Shown in pieces: positions 2,711 through 46,888 of a stretch of DNA of 64,000 nt (position 1 is the first letter of the stretch; each line of letters opens with the position of its first letter). The position numbers and the translations under genes are program-made. The notes under the pieces are model-generated. The model did no database searches, had not been told where the DNA came from, and saw nothing but the letters and a program-made list of their open reading frames with translations. Source of the DNA: a virus; the IMG/VR virus record IMGVR_UViG_3300046535_001489, positions 1 through 64,000 of that record, one strand, 5' to 3'.

Positions 2711-4435
2711 ATGGCACTAATTGGCAATATCCCCGTACGTGGCTTCGATGCTGGAGACGTTTCAGCTATCGTTACGCGGGGATTCCACGCGCCAGCGATT
2801 GCTACTCCGGTTGTAACTGTTGAATGCCCAGAAGCAGTACTGGGAACAGTTGGCGTAGCATTTTCATCGACTGTTGTCGCAACAGGGGGGACGCCGCCTT
2901 ATACCTTTGCTATTGGGTCCGGATCACTTCCTACCGGCCTAACGATGGGTATTGATGGGGTCATTACTGGGACACCAACAGTTCCGGGAACCTTTCCGTT
3001 CTCGCTGTCAGCCATTGACGCAATGACGGTGGTTGGGACGACTTCATGCTCGATAACCATTGCTGCTGCCGTTGTGCTCGACACAGGGTCGGTTGTGATG
3101 TGTGTCGATGCAGCGAACCCTGGGGATGGGGAGTATATTGATGCCTACAGCGGGCTAGATGGGTCGTTTATTCAGCACGGGATACCGTTGTCGCCTCATG
3201 GAATTGGGTATGCTCAAGCTGGGGCAGTGCTGCCTAGTAATGGCCATGTATACCAATGGGGTATTCATGAAGCATCTATTCCTGACGCTGATAATTTATT
3301 TGAATGGGATAATGAACTTATTCAGCAAGCCGTCACATCGATTCCCTGGCCAAGCACTGGGGTATCCTATGCATGGATTCCTAACGGGATTTGCTTTGAT
3401 GGGTCAGATGTTTGTTATATCGCATGGATTGGTTCGCTAGCGATTGCTGGGCATTATGCCATGCAGCAACTGCAGGCAGGAACCTTTGCTGTTCTCAATA
3501 CCTATATTGATTTCGACGGCGGTGCTGGGGTTGGAACCTTTAGGCCTGGGGCTGTTACAGTTGACGGATCTACATATTATTATAGCTTCGGGGATTCGTC
3601 GTCGGCGACGGCGAACGTCATTAGAAAACTCGCTATTCCGGGGGGTACGGCATCAACATTTGCGACGTATAGTACGTGGAATGCTGGGACAGTAACTGGA
3701 TATCAGTTTAATCAAAACTGCCTCCAAACCGATACTGATGATAATGTATATGCGGTTGCACGGCACACAACCGGGGGTGTTGTTGATGGCGCGAGGCTGC
3801 TGAAGTTTGATTCGGCAGGGACGTTGCTGTTAGATTATCCTGTTTCATTCGATACCGTTGCGACGACTGTTGAAGGCATGGCCGTTACGCCCGATATGGC
3901 GTATATGTGGATTATTCTCCACCATCAGACACTACAGCAGTATCGGTTGTCGGATGGGGTTAGGACGATTAATTCCTCGGCTCCTAATGGATTCGCCTAT
4001 GGATCGTTGTCGATTACTGGGGTTGCTGGCCCTCCTCCACCAATGCCCGTGCTGCACATTGCGAAAGTTCAGCAAGGGACATTTTTCAGGGGCCAGATGC
4101 ACGCTACTTACCAATTGGCTGTGTCGAACAGCGGAGCTGCTACATCAGCCCCGATTGTTGTCCATGAGACCCTGCCTAGTGGGCTGAGTTTGGTTTCTAT
4201 GTCGGGGCCGGGATGGACGTGTGTGGGAAATGTCTGCTGCAGGCATGATGTGTTGGATTTGAACGAGACGTTCCCGCTTATTACGGTAACGGTTAATGTG
4301 GCTAGCGATGCGACGTCGCCGCAGGTCAATCTTGCAACAGTAACGAGTGATAGCTTGCCCCCGGCGTCAGCTACTGTGAGCACGCCATTGAGCGATGCCA
4401 GTAACGCTTGTGTGGCAACTCTACCTTTAGGATAA
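2711..4435 (+). CDS. Ig-like/DUF11-type extracellular structural protein
   Basis: 574 residues. Residues about 35-120 match the putative Ig (He_PIG) pattern: GGTPPYTFAIGSGSLPTGLT followed by DGVITGTPTVPGTFPFSL. The middle resembles a beta-propeller (repeated aromatic and Gly blades). The last 120 residues (LHIAKVQQGTFFRGQ, then VHETLPSGLSLVSMSGPGW) match the DUF11/conserved-repeat adhesin fold. The set suggests a surface-exposed appendage binding host glycans or envelope. It sits between the tailspike module and a fibre-like gene. Confidence 0.6.
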   Translation: MALIGNIPVRGFDAGDVSAIVTRGFHAPAIATPVVTVECPEAVLGTVGVAFSSTVVATGGTPPYTFAIGSGSLPTGLTMGIDGVITGTPTVPGTFPFSLSAIDAMTVVGTTSCSITIAAAVVLDTGSVVMCVDAANPGDGEYIDAYSGLDGSFIQHGIPLSPHGIGYAQAGAVLPSNGHVYQWGIHEASIPDADNLFEWDNELIQQAVTSIPWPSTGVSYAWIPNGICFDGSDVCYIAWIGSLAIAGHYAMQQLQAGTFAVLNTYIDFDGGAGVGTFRPGAVTVDGSTYYYSFGDSSSATANVIRKLAIPGGTASTFATYSTWNAGTVTGYQFNQNCLQTDTDDNVYAVARHTTGGVVDGARLLKFDSAGTLLLDYPVSFDTVATTVEGMAVTPDMAYMWIILHHQTLQQYRLSDGVRTINSSAPNGFAYGSLSITGVAGPPPPMPVLHIAKVQQGTFFRGQMHATYQLAVSNSGAATSAPIVVHETLPSGLSLVSMSGPGWTCVGNVCCRHDVLDLNETFPLITVTVNVASDATSPQVNLATVTSDSLPPASATVSTPLSDASNACVATLPLG

Positions 4436-22771: not shown

Positions 22772-22996
22772 TCACTGAGCTTCCCAGTAGGCATTGTTGC
22801 TCAAATAGCTACATCCACACCAGCGTTGAATAGAGTTCGTATGCATCCCCCGCATCGCTGTTTGAGTGAGGTCCATGCGAGTGCAGTAGTCCCAGCTGCC
22901 GTCTGCTCGCTCCCAAACCTCATAGAGAAGGTGTTGAGGATAGTTTGGGCCATAGATATCGTCGCAGTGGCACCAGACGAGGTGTAGGTAGCTCAT
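22772..22996 (-). CDS. Small protein with Cys/Trp-rich core
   Basis: 74 residues from ATG 22996, which overlaps the DNA polymerase stop (ATGA). It contains HLVWCHCDDIYGP and RWCGCSYLSNNAYWEAQ, so paired Cys may bind metal. Co-translated with the polymerase. Unknown function. Confidence 0.55.
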   Translation of the reverse strand: MSYLHLVWCHCDDIYGPNYPQHLLYEVWERADGSWDYCTRMDLTQTAMRGMHTNSIQRWCGCSYLSNNAYWEAQ

Positions 22997-24921
22997 TTCA
23001 TCTCTCCCCAGCAAACTCCACGCTTACTCTCTGTTCCTATATGCAAGAATTGGCCCAACCCCCAGGAGGGGTCCAATGGCAGCTCCTCCACGGGCTTCTC
23101 CATTTCAAACTTCATTGTCTCGTCGCAGTAGTCAGCTTGGTCGATCGGGCATTCGGCAAAGTTGCTATCGTGGATGAGTAGGCGTAGCCATTGGGCGATG
23201 GTGTCAGGGTAGTTGTAGTAGAGACGCTTCAGGGCCTTTTTGATGATAAAGGCTGCATCGCTTTGAGGACCGGCAGCAATGAGGCGCTTGGCATCGTCAC
23301 CGTAATCCCAATCCCATTTGCCTTGCTTCTTGCTCCACGCCAGTACGCTGTAGAATCGCTGAATGTGCCCAAAGGAGTTTTTGTACACACAGCTTTTATC
23401 AACCTGTAAGCAGAGGCGCTCGTGCCACGCAGGGATTTCTGGGAAGACTTCGTAATAGTCTGCTCGCCCTCTAGCAGCATCCTTAATACGATGAAAGACT
23501 GTAGGATGCTGTTCACTTAGCTCTTTAGGGCCAATGCGGTAATTGCTGCTATGAACTATGATCTTCGCCACAGTACGTTCATTCGGGTAGGTCTTCTTAA
23601 TCTGCTTGAGGTAAGCCCCAAGGTCAGCATCACTCCACGCGAGGTTAGGGAGGTCAGCAGCTGTGAATCGGCCTTGCCTGTAGAGGTTATAAGCTGTCAA
23701 ATAGCTGTGGACATCGATGGCTGCAAGCCGGATGTAGTCTTTGCTGCCACAATGGTAGCCTACGAGCTTGGCTTCGATGCCGCTGAAGTCTCGTTCGATG
23801 AAGATGTGGCCCTGCTGAGCTACAAAAAGCATCTTCACGAGCTTCTGAATATCCGAATCGTCGCCACGAGGGATGTTCTGCAGATTAGGGCTGACCATAC
23901 TAGAGCGGAGAGTGCTAGGGGTATGTCTAAAAATTCCCCTGACACGCCCATCGCGTCCAACAGGAAATCCACCAGCGATAGCGCCGGAAGCCACATCATA
24001 CCACCCAATATAGCGCGAGCCGATGGTGCTAAGTTCACGTTCTTCTAAAACCCATTCGTAGAATTTGTGGTCGGGGTGACGGCCTATGAGTTTCGACACC
24101 GCCTTTTCATCGCATGTAACTTTGCGGTCGGCCCCTTTGCCGGTGATGATGAGGGGGTGTTTGAAGTATTGTTGATAACGCTGTATCCCCTTTGTGCTAG
24201 CCTTAAACGGCTCCAGCCTAGCCCACCGCTTTTCACCTTCTACAACTTCGACGCTGGAGGCTCCAGCGCATCGATTTGTTTCTGTGCGAACTTCAATACC
24301 TTCGCTACATGGATTGTTGCTTCGCTTTCGGGTAGCGGTATGTTTAGCTGTCCACTTGGCTCCACAAACGGAGCATGTGCGGGCCAGCTTCGATTTATAA
24401 TGAGCCTTTTTTGGATCTCTTTCCGCACATCTAGAGCATTCTTGATGTGAGACGGCTCCCAAGGTGATTTCCGTGAGTCCACTAACATCTGCTGGGGTTT
24501 TGACGTATCCATTGGGTGGAGAATAGACCCGAATAGCGTTTGGAACCACTGCTTCAATTTTAGCCCTAACTTCATGACGTTTCTCTATAAGTTGTTTGGA
24601 CGATTCGACTCGGCGGGCGAGGTCAACGGGCATGCCTGCTCGGGTCATGGCTGAGAAGACTGGATCGAGTTCACAGATGAATTCGTTGTAGATGTTCCAC
24701 ATGCCGTGTTGCTTGAGGAGTTTCATGATGCCCCGAGCGTTTTGGCCTGCTGTGGAGGCATCTACGGCGTTGTAGTAGGCTGGGGAGCTGCCAGATTCAT
24801 TCTTCCACATGCGCTGGCCGTGGCAGATGAAGGGGGTGACAAAGCCCAATGACTTCTTGAGGTCGCTGTTGAGGATATGCCACATATCCATGCCATCGTG
24901 GTTGGTGCCGTTAATGATCAT
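22993..24921 (-). CDS. Family A DNA polymerase, C-terminal part (exonuclease III motif and polymerase domain)
   Basis: 642 residues. The N-terminus carries on the 3'-5' exonuclease domain (YYNAVDA at 49-55 is the Exo III Y-x3-D). Polymerase motifs follow: motif A IERDFSGIE (D378), motif B R449-T-V-A-K453 through Y461/G464, motif C LIHDSNFAE (H584-D585-S586). Motif C has Ser where most have Glu. An insert at about 160-232 carries four to six Cys (C162/C165, C183/C186, C205, C218), which looks like a zinc finger. The exonuclease/UDG half is encoded upstream at 25040. Confidence 0.9.
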   Translation of the reverse strand: MIINGTNHDGMDMWHILNSDLKKSLGFVTPFICHGQRMWKNESGSSPAYYNAVDASTAGQNARGIMKLLKQHGMWNIYNEFICELDPVFSAMTRAGMPVDLARRVESSKQLIEKRHEVRAKIEAVVPNAIRVYSPPNGYVKTPADVSGLTEITLGAVSHQECSRCAERDPKKAHYKSKLARTCSVCGAKWTAKHTATRKRSNNPCSEGIEVRTETNRCAGASSVEVVEGEKRWARLEPFKASTKGIQRYQQYFKHPLIITGKGADRKVTCDEKAVSKLIGRHPDHKFYEWVLEERELSTIGSRYIGWYDVASGAIAGGFPVGRDGRVRGIFRHTPSTLRSSMVSPNLQNIPRGDDSDIQKLVKMLFVAQQGHIFIERDFSGIEAKLVGYHCGSKDYIRLAAIDVHSYLTAYNLYRQGRFTAADLPNLAWSDADLGAYLKQIKKTYPNERTVAKIIVHSSNYRIGPKELSEQHPTVFHRIKDAARGRADYYEVFPEIPAWHERLCLQVDKSCVYKNSFGHIQRFYSVLAWSKKQGKWDWDYGDDAKRLIAAGPQSDAAFIIKKALKRLYYNYPDTIAQWLRLLIHDSNFAECPIDQADYCDETMKFEMEKPVEELPLDPSWGLGQFLHIGTESKRGVCWGEMK

Positions 24922-25040
24922 AATTGTTTTATCTTACGCATATGCCCACCACACTTAGTACACCGAGGTCCAGCTCCCCCTCCAGAAGGCCCTGCTAATG
25001 ATTTAGTAACTATAGTCCCGCAATTATCGCATTTCCACAT
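24918..25040 (-). CDS. Zinc-ribbon microprotein inserted between the two polymerase genes
   Basis: 40 residues. It opens MWKCDNCGTIV and later has RCTKCGGHMRKIKQL, a four-Cys ribbon. Its ATG overlaps the TAA of the UDG-exonuclease gene (TAATG), and its TGA overlaps the start of the polymerase gene (ATGA). The three adjacent genes therefore occupy three frames. It sits exactly where the exonuclease domain is interrupted. It could be a selfish or adaptor insert; function unknown. Confidence 0.7.
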   Translation of the reverse strand: MWKCDNCGTIVTKSLAGPSGGGAGPRCTKCGGHMRKIKQL

Positions 25041-25972
25041 TATTTACTCGCCAATATCCTAGGAATATCATATGAACCATTCCACCACAGTTTATCACAA
25101 GGATGGCTCAAAAGTTTCTCATGAATTGAGTGATAAGGCCCACCCCAAGGGATAGACATACCTCTATAGTCCATGTAGCTATAACCACAACGCAAAATGA
25201 TGTAATCGCTCCCATCTTCAAGGTCTAGCTCCTCTTCGTCTGAGCCTTTTTGGGGGGTTTCGATATCTACTGAAAGAAATAAACTATTGTCTGCCATCCA
25301 AGCCTGCTCAAACTCGACAGCCCATGCCATAGCAGCCATAGGAGTAGGATCCAGCAGATAACTGCCTTCAATATATTCATAGCCGTCTCTTGCAATCTCC
25401 GTGCCGCGTTGGATATCGTGAATGAGGACTTGAGCCCAGGCGGTTTTTCCGCGCATGACAAAGCTAGGGTGTACCGTTGGCAGCACCCATGTTTTATACT
25501 TTGCACTCCAGAACACATAGCCCCGTGCGCCTTTGTGCTTTTTGGAGTCGAGGAGTCCTACGCCGTGTTGGTTGGCAAACTCAGGGATCAAACGACGAAA
25601 CGCAGTAACACCCAAAGCAACAATACAGCGAGGCTGAAAGTCAGCAATACACCTGTCAAGGTTAGGGCTACAGTAATCAATAGCATCTTGAGCATAGGAT
25701 TCACCGGCTAATTTGTTGTTTGGAGGCCTGCAGAAAAGCACGTTGGCAATTTTGAAGTCATCTCTATTTAGTCCTCCACGTTGCATCATGCGGTCGAGAG
25801 CTTGGCCAGCACGGCCTTGGAAGGGTAGGCCAACTGGCACCTCATCAGCCCCGAGAGCCTCACCTACTAAAAGTGTGCCGTTGGCTCCTGTACCACTCAC
25901 TTCCATAAAGCCTATGCCGTCGCCATAAAGACTACAGCCTCTGCAGGAATTGGGTTTGACTAGAAGGGGCAT
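25040..25972 (-). CDS. Uracil-DNA glycosylase-like domain fused to N-terminal part of 3'-5' exonuclease
   Basis: 310 residues. Residues 10-195 are a family-4/SPO1-type UDG: C10/C13, VGEALGADEVPVGLPFQG (motif A), FCRPPNN and TVHPSFVMR. Residues about 230-310 begin the polymerase-associated exonuclease: SVDIETP (Exo I D236/E238) and LWWNGSYDIP (Exo II). The gene stops 8 residues after Exo II. In phages such as SPO1, UDG-like, exonuclease and polymerase domains sit in one protein; here the protein ends early and the rest is a separate gene. Confidence 0.85.
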   Translation of the reverse strand: MPLLVKPNSCRGCSLYGDGIGFMEVSGTGANGTLLVGEALGADEVPVGLPFQGRAGQALDRMMQRGGLNRDDFKIANVLFCRPPNNKLAGESYAQDAIDYCSPNLDRCIADFQPRCIVALGVTAFRRLIPEFANQHGVGLLDSKKHKGARGYVFWSAKYKTWVLPTVHPSFVMRGKTAWAQVLIHDIQRGTEIARDGYEYIEGSYLLDPTPMAAMAWAVEFEQAWMADNSLFLSVDIETPQKGSDEEELDLEDGSDYIILRCGYSYMDYRGMSIPWGGPYHSIHEKLLSHPCDKLWWNGSYDIPRILASK

Positions 25973-26637
25973 TCGTCCTCAACATCCATATTTAGTACAG
26001 TGGGCTTCATTAGGTCTTTTATAGTATATAGCGTTTGATCTTGAGTTGTTTTCAATAGCTCATTCAACCATGCCATAGACTTTGGAACCGGAAGCTGCTG
26101 GATGTTCAATGGCTCAGGCACCTCCTCCGACAACTCCTTCAACACCACCTCATCAAGAGTATGCCCATATCTTGCACAAAGTTTGATATAGCGCCCAAGA
26201 GTTTTCTTGTGGCCTTTGTTGAGCAAACGAATAGGCTCGTCAGGTGCAGTGGCCTCTTTATGGGACACTCGTTCCTGTTTTCTGGACAGGATGGCGTGGG
26301 CGTGGCAGCTGAGGTCGAAGAAGCTGAGGGTTTCTTTGCAGTCTACTCCGGCACTAATGAGGACTTGGATGGGTTTCATGATACCTGGGATGTAGCCTTC
26401 ACCGACGAGTTCGCCGCCGCCCACGTAGTTTCGTTCTCCAATCGCTGCCCGCTCAAAGAATGGCATAGAGGTGAGAAACTTGTCGGCAGTTGGGGTGTTG
26501 GTTTTGGCAAACCACACATCAATATCCCCAGCTTTGTCATAATCCGCTACTGCTCCGCCTGCGATGAATATGGATGAGCAGCTACCAGTGCGCTTGAAAA
26601 TGGTCTCGAAGGCTTCGGTTTGGTTGAGGATCTTCAT
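25960..26637 (-). CDS. Nucleotidyltransferase-fold protein
   Basis: 225 residues from ATG 26637, which overlaps the membrane microprotein stop. The motif FIAGGAVADYDKAGDIDVWF matches the DNA polymerase beta/poly(A)-polymerase-type nucleotidyltransferase signature (GG...D...DIDVW). A helical C-terminal half follows. It could tag RNA or nucleotides, or act as a minimal antitoxin-like NTase. It overlaps the UDG gene start by 13 bases. Confidence 0.7.
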   Translation of the reverse strand: MKILNQTEAFETIFKRTGSCSSIFIAGGAVADYDKAGDIDVWFAKTNTPTADKFLTSMPFFERAAIGERNYVGGGELVGEGYIPGIMKPIQVLISAGVDCKETLSFFDLSCHAHAILSRKQERVSHKEATAPDEPIRLLNKGHKKTLGRYIKLCARYGHTLDEVVLKELSEEVPEPLNIQQLPVPKSMAWLNELLKTTQDQTLYTIKDLMKPTVLNMDVEDECPF

Positions 26638-26783
26638 CTCAGATTCCCTGTAATTGCTAGTACCAACAAAATAATCAACAGCAACGTCAATATACTCATC
26701 CCAGCAATCGGCTGGCCAATGTGAATAGCCCCGCCGCCCCCAAAAAGGAGGATAAGGATGAGTAGAAGGACTAGAATATTCAT
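26634..26783 (-). CDS. DUF3309-like small membrane protein
   Basis: 49 residues with two hydrophobic stretches around a Gly/Gln linker (MNILVLLLILILLFGGGGAI, then LTLLLIILLVLAITGNLR). DUF3309-type proteins have this arrangement; the match is by eye. It has overlapping start and stop with both neighbours. Role unknown. Confidence 0.6.
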   Translation of the reverse strand: MNILVLLLILILLFGGGGAIHIGQPIAGMSILTLLLIILLVLAITGNLR

Positions 26784-26986
26784 TTAGACTCTCCTTTGAT
26801 GAAATAGGGTTCATTGGGGTTAATTAGCCCAGCAGCAACATAGCGGGCATCGATGGTTACTTCAGGGCCTTGCAAAGTTCCTGCCGCTATCTGCCGTAGC
26901 CGTCGTCGGCGCTCCCGTTGGCTCTGGTGGGGGAGGTACTTATTGCCGCGTTGGGGTACGAGAATGCGGTTGTCGTTGAGTTTCAT
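26780..26986 (-). CDS. Small basic protein
   Basis: 68 residues, Arg/Gln-rich N-terminal half (VPQRGNKYLPHQSQRERRRR), then a hydrophobic segment. It overlaps both neighbours by four bases. Basic character suggests nucleic-acid binding. No known family. Confidence 0.55.
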   Translation of the reverse strand: MKLNDNRILVPQRGNKYLPHQSQRERRRRLRQIAAGTLQGPEVTIDARYVAAGLINPNEPYFIKGESK

Positions 26987-27231: not shown

Positions 27232-27368
27232 AGCTCCTCCAGTTCGTTCATAGCTTTTGATACTCGCTCCTGTAATTCTAAACCTCCAGTTTTCCAGCCT
27301 TGACCTGCATGGTAAATGTCGAGAAATTCGTAGATGTCGAGCAAAAGCTGCATCATATCAGTTTTCAT
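27228..27368 (-). CDS. Small helical protein
   Basis: 46 residues: MKTDMMQLLLDIYEFLDIYH, then GGLELQERVSKAMNELEEL. It overlaps the downstream start (ATGA) and the HNH gene end. Likely a two-helix protein. Function unknown. Confidence 0.5.
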   Translation of the reverse strand: MKTDMMQLLLDIYEFLDIYHAGQGWKTGGLELQERVSKAMNELEEL

Positions 27369-27925
27369 GACAGCTCACACCCTTCTGTCGGGCAGCTACA
27401 ACTCTTCATATAATACTCTTTTCTCTTTAACTGTCTGCATGCTCTACATTGCCGCTTTCCACTAGGATGCCAGTAGATATTATCTCCTACCAATTTATGG
27501 CCTCGTTGACATTCTGCTCTGGTAGGTCGTAAAGGTCTGGGGGCATCTACCGAAAGACCTTTATTAATGCGTCGTCTAATCGTCCATTCAGGAATATTGA
27601 TATCTCTAGATAATCTAGCTAAAGTAGTTGCAGTATCTTTATAGTTAACCCGTCGATTATGTCGTGTATTATTAGCTTGCTCTTCTCTAGTAGCCCAACG
27701 GCAATTTTCTGGGCCATAGGGGCCGTCGTTATCTATTCGTTCAATAGATAGACCGTTAGATGGCCCCATATCTTCATAGAAGGTTTTGAACGAATTAACC
27801 CATTCAGGACAAATAGCTATACCGCGCCCTCCATAATGCTTATAATTGGTGCTCTTAGGACGGAGGCAACGGTCTTTCATTAGTTGCCAAATTCTATATT
27901 CACGGTATTCAGCTAATTTACTCAC
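27365..27925 (-). CDS. HNH homing endonuclease (AP2/NUMOD-type)
   Basis: 186 residues from GTG 27925; a longer ATG form from 27991 is possible. The core is YRIWQLMKDRCLRPKSTNYK, YGGRGIAICPEW, then LSIERIDNDGPYGPENCRW, a phage HNH signature. The C-terminal half contains a helix-turn-helix-like region (TATTLARLSRDINIPEWTIR) and a Cys-rich tail (CQRGHKL, CRACRQLKRK) that may recognise DNA. It is embedded between early genes and is probably mobile. Confidence 0.8.
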   Translation of the reverse strand: MSKLAEYREYRIWQLMKDRCLRPKSTNYKHYGGRGIAICPEWVNSFKTFYEDMGPSNGLSIERIDNDGPYGPENCRWATREEQANNTRHNRRVNYKDTATTLARLSRDINIPEWTIRRRINKGLSVDAPRPLRPTRAECQRGHKLVGDNIYWHPSGKRQCRACRQLKRKEYYMKSCSCPTEGCELS

Positions 27926-28259
27926 AGTTTTCAGCTCTACAGGAACAATGGCTCTTAAAGCATGCCGAACGGCACCGCACGTTGTCTTCAATAACTACTG
28001 CACTATTTGTACCATCTGGATTAGGTTCACACTTCTTATGACAATTGCAGTTGTGATCAGGAACTTCTGGATTATGTACACAATTTGCTCCCGGCGCTGG
28101 CTCCTCGTGGTTGGGGTTGCCTTCTGGTGGCGAGGGAACGCTCTGAGCCATAGCCATTGGCATCATACAGGCAATGTAGCGAGATGGGGCCATAGCTAAA
28201 CCGACTCCTGCAAAGAGGGTTGCTGAGATGACGAAGCCGCCGATGTGGTTAAGTTTCAT
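27918..28259 (-). CDS. Secreted Cys-rich protein
   Basis: 113 residues. A signal-peptide-like N-terminus (LNHIGGFVISATLFAGVGLAMA) is followed by a Pro/Asn segment and then ten or so Cys (CVHNPEVPDHNCNCHKKC, CRSACFKSHCSCRAENC). These resemble disulphide or metal clusters. A periplasmic target is likely. No known family. Confidence 0.55.
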   Translation of the reverse strand: MKLNHIGGFVISATLFAGVGLAMAPSRYIACMMPMAMAQSVPSPPEGNPNHEEPAPGANCVHNPEVPDHNCNCHKKCEPNPDGTNSAVVIEDNVRCRSACFKSHCSCRAENCE

Positions 28260-29118: not shown

Positions 29119-29213
29119 TTCCCCTTTCGGGGGTCATTATTATACTCAGGGCAGTCCGTAGCATGCAGTTCACGTTCAATCCAGCTATAGCAAAATGTGC
29201 AATGTTTAGCCAT
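29115..29213 (-). CDS. Zinc-knuckle microprotein
   Basis: 32 residues. MAKHCTFCYSWIERELHAT, then DCPEYNNDPRKGN. Its Cys-x2-Cys plus later His and Cys suggests metal binding. It starts in an eight-base overlap (ATGGCTAA) with the gene at 29206 and overlaps the TTG start below. Function unknown. Confidence 0.55.
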   Translation of the reverse strand: MAKHCTFCYSWIERELHATDCPEYNNDPRKGN

Positions 29214-29400
29214 CGTTATTAGTAATAGGTTTAATGCGAACTTTACCTCCGCATTCTGGGCATTGTAATGGAGTCCTATGAATACCCATACCTTTAGTGT
29301 CTTTATAGATCCAACCACATTGAATGCAAATAGCATGACGTAGCCTTGCCTCTGCTGCAATAGCATCCTTAAAGGTCTTTTTGGACCCTGTAATCCACAT
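29206..29400 (-). CDS. Zinc-ribbon protein
   Basis: 64 residues from ATG 29400; a TTG at 29412 is alternative. CIQCGWIYKD and CPECGGKVRIKP give the classical four-Cys ribbon. It is part of the small-gene set. Such proteins usually bind DNA, RNA or host RNA polymerase subunits. Confidence 0.65.
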   Translation of the reverse strand: MWITGSKKTFKDAIAAEARLRHAICIQCGWIYKDTKGMGIHRTPLQCPECGGKVRIKPITNNDG

Positions 29401-29401
29401 A

Positions 29402-29635
29402 TTATTGAACAACCCCCGTCGGCATCAAATACATCGTCGCCCAGCTGCTTCCTTCATTCACAAACGCTGTCAACTCATCAGTGCTAAGCATCTGTCCCCT
29501 CATCTGCACTGCCAGCACTGTCAGCAGCCCACACACCGCCGTCGTTCTATTTGCTCCAACTTCCATTAAGGCATCCATAATGGCATTGTAGGCTGTTGCA
29601 GTGTCTTGGCTTGTCACAGCGGTCATTGTAATCAT
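29402..29635 (-). CDS. Small hypothetical protein
   Basis: 77 residues, mostly helical (ATAYNAIMDALMEVGANRTT), ending in PTGVVQ. The four-base overlap with its upstream gene supports translation. Function unknown. Confidence 0.55.
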   Translation of the reverse strand: MITMTAVTSQDTATAYNAIMDALMEVGANRTTAVCGLLTVLAVQMRGQMLSTDELTAFVNEGSSWATMYLMPTGVVQ

Positions 29636-38148: not shown

Positions 38149-38476
38149 AGGGCAATTCTCCAATCCGCTTTTCACCAGATTCAACCGCCAAGTTAACTGC
38201 GTTAGCCCCGTAGGAAGCAATAATGCTTGTCCACGCTGCGTTTAGACCTAGTTCAATACCATATTGACGTTCAGCGGCAGCATTAAGATCCCTATACTTT
38301 CGTTCTTTTACGTGTTCGTCTTCATCAATACCACCTGAAAACCCATAGATGGAATTCATTTGGGATTCTAACTCTCCTCTCATTTTACGACACTCAGCGA
38401 TTCGACGCTTGAAATCAATGTAGATTTCATATATGGGGTTTGAAGCTGAACCGAAGCCACGGTCTTTAGTGCTCAT
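38132..38476 (-). CDS. Hypothetical protein sharing the MSTKDRGFGSAS start
   Basis: 114 residues from ATG 38476. After the shared 12-residue start it is unrelated to the previous protein (KRRIAECRKMRGELESQMNS, helical). Overlaps both neighbours. The shared start suggests a common targeting or binding tag. Confidence 0.6.
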   Translation of the reverse strand: MSTKDRGFGSASNPIYEIYIDFKRRIAECRKMRGELESQMNSIYGFSGGIDEDEHVKERKYRDLNAAAERQYGIELGLNAAWTSIIASYGANAVNLAVESGEKRIGELPYVNEG

Positions 38477-38586
38477 TATCGACCATTCCCGCATTTAGCA
38501 CATCGAGAGTCTTCGTCTTTATTTAGCGCGCTACAAATAGAACAACGCCAAGCCCAGCTCATGAAAAATCTAATATATTTAATCAT
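38476..38586 (-). CDS. Zinc-ribbon microprotein
   Basis: 36 residues: IKYIRFFMSWAWRCSICSA, then CAKCGNGR. Four Cys in C-x2-C pairs. It overlaps its neighbours (TAATG at one end, ATGATTAA at the other), so it is co-translated. Confidence 0.6.
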   Translation of the reverse strand: MIKYIRFFMSWAWRCSICSALNKDEDSRCAKCGNGR

Positions 38587-44176: not shown

Positions 44177-44422
44177 TTAGTACCTCGCTACAAGATTAGG
44201 CACGTTTAGTAGTTGCTCAAAGTCCTTAAGAGCAGCATTAACTTCGTCTACGTGTCGTTGGTAGCCATCAATGACTTCTTGGCGCGTATTGCCACTTTGG
44301 CCGTATTGCCTTTTCATTTCGTCTGGTGTGCAGTTACGAAATGCAGCCTTTGCACGCTCTAAGTTATCACCGCGTCTTTCTTTGATGGCTTGAAGAATCA
44401 GATTGTAGGATTTTTTGGTCAT
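44177..44422 (-). CDS. Small helical protein
   Basis: 81 residues. KERRGDNLERAKAAFRNCTP and RHVDEVNAALKDFEQLLN, mostly helical. The start overlaps the ribbon gene stop (ATGA). Function unknown. Confidence 0.55.
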   Translation of the reverse strand: MTKKSYNLILQAIKERRGDNLERAKAAFRNCTPDEMKRQYGQSGNTRQEVIDGYQRHVDEVNAALKDFEQLLNVPNLVARY

Positions 44423-44535
44423 CGCAGCCTCCTAATCTTCTTATAGAAATCCATGCAATCATCACACAAATAGTATGGATATTTCCACACAGCCCTGGCG
44501 ATTTCACAGATGACACAGGTGATTTTGATGCTCAT
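44419..44535 (-). CDS. Zinc-ribbon microprotein
   Basis: 38 residues: SIKITCVICEIARAV, then YYLCDDCMDFYKKIRRLR. Four Cys in two C-x2-C pairs. ATGA overlaps at both ends. Confidence 0.65.
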   Translation of the reverse strand: MSIKITCVICEIARAVWKYPYYLCDDCMDFYKKIRRLR

Positions 44536-44648
44536 CTATGCACCCAGCAATCCTTGCAGAACCAATTACCGTTGGCTTGATAACGTCTGCATTGCCGCAA
44601 CTGCCCACACACACGACAAAAGTGCCGTTTAGCCTTTTTCTTAACCAT
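44532..44648 (-). CDS. Zinc-ribbon microprotein
   Basis: 38 residues: RHFCRVCGQLRQC, then FCKDCWVHR. Strongly basic, four or five Cys. Directly linked to the gene at 44419, so the two ribbons are made from one mRNA. Confidence 0.65.
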   Translation of the reverse strand: MVKKKAKRHFCRVCGQLRQCRRYQANGNWFCKDCWVHR

Positions 44649-44665
44649 TGTCAATACCCCGGTGG

Positions 44666-44854
44666 TTAGTTATTTTCTCGCATAGCCTTAAAAGCATCCG
44701 ATGAGCAGTCACTACAATGCCACAAAGGTTGCTTATGTTTACACCAACCACAAGTACGATGCCCCCTTGTTCCAGCCTTTAAGCAGTTAGCACGCTCCAA
44801 ATCATCTAAACGTGGTTCATAACCTGTTAAATGAAAGAACTCAAACGTATTCAT
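44666..44854 (-). CDS. Zinc-ribbon small protein
   Basis: 62 residues: RTCGWCKHKQPLWHCSDCSS, a clear ribbon, with a helix after it. Near the two previous ribbons. Confidence 0.65.
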   Translation of the reverse strand: MNTFEFFHLTGYEPRLDDLERANCLKAGTRGHRTCGWCKHKQPLWHCSDCSSDAFKAMRENN

Positions 44855-44882: not shown

Positions 44883-45047
44883 CTACCTTCCACCTTTGGT
44901 TATGGTTTTAATAGGAATACGCCTAACATGCCATTTATGCCACACAAGCAAAGCTAGACACTTAGGGCACCAAAATTGATGCTTAAAGCCCTGTAATTCT
45001 CTACTTGCTGGCATTATCCGGCAAACACTACAAATAGGTGTATCCAT
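44883..45047 (-). CDS. Zinc-ribbon microprotein
   Basis: 54 residues: MDTPICSVCRIMPASRELQG, then FWCPKCLALLVWHKWH, and basic tail. RBS AAAGGAT. A fourth ribbon in this 1 kb stretch. Confidence 0.65.
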   Translation of the reverse strand: MDTPICSVCRIMPASRELQGFKHQFWCPKCLALLVWHKWHVRRIPIKTITKGGR

Positions 45048-45087
45048 ATAATCCTTTGCCACAAAGCGGAAGGCAGGTTGGAAGAGA

Positions 45088-46777: not shown

Positions 46778-46888
46778 TTATTTGTGTTTATTCCAGCAAA
46801 AGGCACAACACTGCTTTATACGGTTTGGCTCGCCTCCAAAGAAGATACGTTTACACCACTGACAAATGATACTATCTGATAAATACAT
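46778..46888 (-). CDS. Zinc-ribbon microprotein
   Basis: 36 residues: MYLSDSIICQWCKRIFFGGE, then KQCCAFCWNKHK. Two Cys pairs. Weak RBS. Another member of the ribbon set. Confidence 0.55.
   Translation of the reverse strand: MYLSDSIICQWCKRIFFGGEPNRIKQCCAFCWNKHK

Follow-up and report, generated by a model that had tools for sequence, protein, structure and literature searches.

The family A DNA polymerase of this uncultivated phage is encoded in pieces: its gene, contiguous in relatives, is split by a small zinc-ribbon gene without loss of coding sequence. The window in which it lies is the whole stretch analysed, the first 64,000 nucleotides of a 70,714-bp virus contig (IMGVR_UViG_3300046535_001489). 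Because the record bears an exact 127-bp direct terminal repeat (1-127 and 70588-70714), the 70.7-kb contig probably represents a genome that is complete or circularly permuted. Judged from its sequence, the polymerase is a real gene-in-pieces and most likely functional, and we think it probable that insertion of the zinc-ribbon gene split it, that the two halves reassemble non-covalently and that the ribbon is a passenger.

Three ORFs on the minus strand make up the locus, with the positions, frames and overlaps given in the initial annotation. The first (25040-25972, 310 aa; here the N half) encodes a UDG domain with the Exo I and II motifs, the second (24918-25040, 40 aa) a zinc ribbon of the form CxxCG...CxxCGG, and the third (22993-24921, 642 aa; the C half) the Exo III motif and a family A polymerase. 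The stop codon of the N half and the ATG of the ribbon share one nucleotide in a TAATG (25040-25042, minus strand; agt aaa TAATG tgg), and the stop codon of the ribbon and the ATG of the C half share four in an ATGA (24918-24921, minus strand; caa ttATGA tca). The ORFs occupy three different frames, and stops close all frames at the junctions. As in-frame stops lie two codons before the ribbon ATG and five codons before the polymerase ATG, the ribbon and the polymerase half each need a start of their own; with every frame closed near the next start, the ORFs could be joined only if the insert were bypassed or removed. A frameshift or indel error is ruled out by the closed frames and by relatives that lack the whole of the approximately 120 bp. 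Upstream, a gene of unassigned function running in the same direction (25960-26814, minus strand, no Pfam match) overlaps the N half by 13 nt, and the series of overlaps makes a single polycistronic mRNA with coupled translation likely.

Pfam places a UDG-superfamily domain at the N terminus of the N half (PF03167, E 5e-23) and DNA_pol_A in the C half (PF00476, E 7e-22). Motif alignment assigns Exo I (DIET; D236, E238) and Exo II (NGSYD; N298, D302) to the N half, and Exo III (YNAVD; Y50, D54) together with polymerase motifs A (D378), B (K453/Y461) and C (H584/D585) to the C half, which confirms the proposed division of UDG plus Exo I/II from Exo III plus polymerase. The three exonuclease motifs (D/E, N/D and Y/D) align with those of intact members while being divided over two chains, and all 11 catalytic positions checked are kept. 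The elements of a UDG-Exo-PolA enzyme are all present (UDG, Exo I-III, polymerase motifs A, B and C), distributed over three ORFs in place of a single polypeptide; members in two ORFs are common in this family. A search of the whole record found no second polymerase of family A, B or C and no DnaQ-like exonuclease. The protein gp31 of phage SPO1 does hold UDG and 3'-5' exonuclease together in one chain, as had been claimed, and both gp31 and L092, the nearest relative found, have the domains of the window in the same order; unlike the window, both are in one frame and lack an insert between the Exo II and III motifs. By its annotation, SPO1 carries, in place of a window-type insert, an intron with a homing endonuclease.

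The comparison with intact relatives reveals how cleanly the gene was divided. The first alignment-based scans recovered 13 relatives with 33-43% identity over the N half, and the reading frame continues across the cut point in 13 of 13. In most of them the match passes from N-half residue 306-309 to C-half residue 3 after 9 to 18 bp; in L024 the C-half match begins at residue 8. L092 (IMGVR_UViG_3300033571_014591), which came from a second scan, has an intact polymerase in one frame, 63% identical to the N half and 58% to the C half, and its match to the latter spans residue 1 or 3 to 642. When the two halves are aligned jointly to L092, the alignment is collinear and gapless through the junction, with K310|M1 standing on G308|I309 and no residue missing or added, which makes the ribbon a seamless insert of some 120 bp. 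The initial annotation had placed the fission inside the exonuclease domain with the ribbon exactly in the gap, and the intact relatives, L092 and the 13 others whose frame runs on, bear this out. L092 also has Sak4-like and SSB-like genes in the order of the window, and the ribbon is absent. In a 77-member tree the window and intact L092 are sisters (SH-aLRT 100), and the clade around them is otherwise uncut at this site. Since the insert is absent from every intact relative, and no relative found carries it, the fission is most simply placed on the branch that leads to the window. Only one genome, a single metagenomic record, was found to have this exact split; searches for the C half as a single protein, in bacterial and archaeal genome contigs, and for relatives of L003 (a split member treated below) yielded nothing.

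A model of the L092 protein (AF2; mean pLDDT 87.6, pTM 0.83) matches the Klenow and Bst polymerase I structures. The junction falls in loop 307-314 of this model, which connects the helix that follows Exo II to the strand beyond it. As Exo I and II belong to the first chain and Exo III to the second, the proofreading site must be built from two chains. In the history that we favour, a one-piece UDG-Exo-PolA gene would have been interrupted, after its divergence from L092, by about 120 bp carrying the ribbon gene. On the L092 model the site falls in a surface loop, and the alignment shows that all of the original codons were kept, with new start and stop codons at the edges of the insert. On a probable polycistronic message, as the overlaps and in-frame stops indicate, ribosomes would terminate at TAATG and reinitiate on the ribbon, then terminate at ATGA and reinitiate on the polymerase half. 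The two chains would then fold against each other and rebuild a proofreading polymerase non-covalently. We infer such reassembly because the catalytic residues are complete, there is no other polymerase, and gene 43 and nrdA provide precedents. Gene 43 is split (43A/43B) in Aeromonas phages 25 and 44RR, and the products from phage 25 co-purify and polymerise (PMC2988022), which makes re-association the natural expectation for the window. The nrdA gene of Aeh1 is split by mobE, and the split NrdA is active; mobE of T4 shows a UAAUG overlap (PMC2988022). These are, like the window polymerase, essential enzyme genes in pieces, and their products work. Gene 43, however, encodes a family B polymerase and nrdA a ribonucleotide reductase, and their gaps hold a homing endonuclease or an untranslated spacer.

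The pattern CxxCG-x(8,30)-CxxCG occurs in two ORFs of the 70.7-kb record, compared with 0.025 per dinucleotide-shuffled genome, so the ribbon is a real gene-like feature rather than a chance one. Its profile matches are to zinc ribbons only, weak and all under the curated cut-offs, and a single HNH-family match among PHROGs (E 0.31) is at chance level. A block of small genes lies between the SSB-like gene and the polymerase and is missing in L092; it contains an HNH endonuclease (27365-27991, minus strand; PHROG 3377, E 1e-47), which need not be connected with the split, and a second small zinc-ribbon ORF of similar layout (29206-29412, minus strand; CIQCG...CPECGGKVR). GC3 is.29 for the ribbon,.32 for the HNH gene and second ribbon,.45 for the UDG half and.56 for the polymerase half; the low value of the ribbon, taken from the small sample of 41 codons, fits a later arrival. 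The phage is unusually rich in zinc ribbons, with about seven other small minus-strand ORFs that have two CxxC motifs: the second ribbon just given, 38476-38586, 44419-44535, 44532-44654, 44666-44854, 44883-45062 and 46778-46888, four of which stand side by side at 44.4-45.1 kb. Given this company, the gap ORF is most simply read as a passenger, a small zinc-ribbon gene among several in the phage, which came to lie in a loop that tolerates insertions. It may have a regulatory or nucleic-acid-binding function independent of the polymerase. Genes known to split others mostly encode nucleases and the ribbon does not, which counts against even this best explanation.

Splitting proves to be recurrent in the UDG-Exo-PolA family. 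About 100 loci, which had been collected through a single conserved UDG motif and as relatives of the window, were scanned with an HMM of intact members; the counts describe this sample. Two-ORF polymerases are cut at no fewer than five sites: the window's own, between the Exo II and III motifs; immediately ahead of Exo III (L025, L049 and L085 with 4-nt overlaps, and L083 with two small genes); at the exonuclease/polymerase boundary (18 tree rows); close to where thumb and palm meet (L105, L106, L109 and L110); and further on in L026 only. At least eight changes between the intact and the split state, in either direction, are needed on the tree of 77. Catalytic residues are retained almost throughout the 27 other split members.

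What stands between the halves varies widely. There is no gene at all in L025, L032, L049, L066 and L085 (4-nt overlap), MazG in L028 and L046, a methylase in L046 and, weakly, L086, an Endonuclease VII in L105 (4201-4665; Pfam 8e-20), HNH_3 in L026 (Pfam 7e-14), and several genes over 3.5 kb in L109, where a 61-aa Cys-rich ORF directly precedes the C half; elsewhere there are other small genes. L003, which is Podoviridae ctLwi270 (MW202554), resembles the window in arrangement, having a UDG-Exo half and a polymerase half with a zinc-ribbon ORF in the gap and a 1-nt stop/start overlap with the C half. Unlike in the window, its cut lies after Exo III and its ribbon (2878-3138; PF22811, 2e-14) is of the NrdR type and unrelated in sequence; no near start codon is evident at the N-terminal end of this ribbon. 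Such varied contents show that a zinc ribbon is no general component of split polymerases. The thumb/palm split of L105 is found without the Endonuclease VII in L106 and L110, and with 3.5 kb of other genes in L109; from the sequences it looks as if the endonuclease came and went.

Nucleases in two of these gaps, those of L105 and L026, lend some weight to the idea that the window's insert is the relic of a homing endonuclease or other mobile gene that shrank until a zinc-binding module was left. Phage gene splitting by mobile nucleases is established (PMC2988022), and an HNH gene stands 1.4 kb upstream in the same phage. The gap of the window contains no endonuclease, however: its ORF is a complete, closed ribbon whose start and stop are fitted to both neighbours, without an HNH, GIY-YIG or other nuclease motif. 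Nor did a longer relative appear, tblastn against phages giving no homologue even at E 10 and two DNA-pattern scans of IMG/VR giving either nothing or one unrelated protein end. We regard a relic as unlikely, if the best of the alternatives. The initial annotation had offered the ribbon as the selfish cause of the split; this is plausible only to the extent that insertion of the ribbon probably made the split. The ORF has no nuclease motif and no relative found.

The same annotation had also suggested that the ribbon acts as a pin, a working subunit that holds the halves together or replaces the covalent link, with all three products forming one polymerase. Its position exactly in the gap, where coupled translation would make it in step with both halves, speaks for such a part, and the ribbon of L003, albeit unrelated and NrdR-type, and the Cys-rich ORF of L109 point in the same direction. 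Against this, splits at other sites in the family have no gene in the gap or one for MazG, a methylase, HNH or Endonuclease VII, so a clasp is not generally needed. The family A polymerase of Methylophilales phage MEP401/402 is likewise in two ORFs around a small ORF of unassigned function (PMC10580990); it differs from the window in being cut inside the polymerase domain, in having no UDG found on its N half and in the length of the small ORF, 78 aa. In MEP401 this gap protein has no cysteine, which rules it out as a zinc ribbon. With about seven other small CxxC/CxxC ORFs in the phage, moreover, it would be no great coincidence to find a ribbon in the gap. The pin is thus weakened and appears to us a slim prospect. 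Slimmer again is a broader version, by which small zinc ribbons would repeatedly settle in polymerase cuts (the window, L003 and perhaps L109) as detachable assembly or regulatory subunits that switch proofreading.

That the split is merely a decaying gene or an assembly artefact is very improbable. A single metagenomic record would allow it, but the catalytic residues are intact in both halves, the polymerase is the sole recognisable one in the record, which excludes decay in the presence of a back-up, and the terminal repeat makes the record look complete; a chimera would hardly add a whole ribbon ORF at 1-nt and 4-nt overlaps without loss of a residue. Least credible of all is that about 120 nt are removed as an intron, or skipped by ribosomes as in T4 gene 60, to give one full-length polymerase: joined halves would have the exact ancestral length, the stop follows a possible take-off codon AAA and another AAA lies near the start of the C frame, but the insert has no Rfam match, folds worse than shuffled sequence (z +1.57), is far below the length of known self-splicing introns and codes for a coherent ribbon whose start and stop overlap the neighbouring genes, and landing on the matching AAA would lengthen the product by two residues.

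Insertion of the ribbon gene followed by reassembly of the halves would extend what is already known of split phage polymerases, which have been described in both family B (PMC2988022) and family A (PMC10580990). The novel points are a cut that falls within the exonuclease domain, an insert that is a zinc ribbon and the degree to which UDG-Exo-PolA enzymes are split; no description of these three points was found in the open-access literature searched, and one may exist elsewhere. Because the natural split separates two catalytic motifs within the proofreading domain of a family A polymerase, reassembly of a two-chain exonuclease becomes directly testable. That UDG-Exo-PolA genes of uncultivated phages are cut at several places and carry differing cargo should help gene callers, and natural split sites could be used in polymerase engineering.

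The polymerase half contains cysteines of its own. A Cys-rich module lies in frame between exonuclease and palm, at about residues 170-230, and C183, C186, H194 and C205 are invariant among the close relatives aligned. On these grounds the polymerase of the window/L092 clade probably carries its own zinc site, enlarged in the window and L092.
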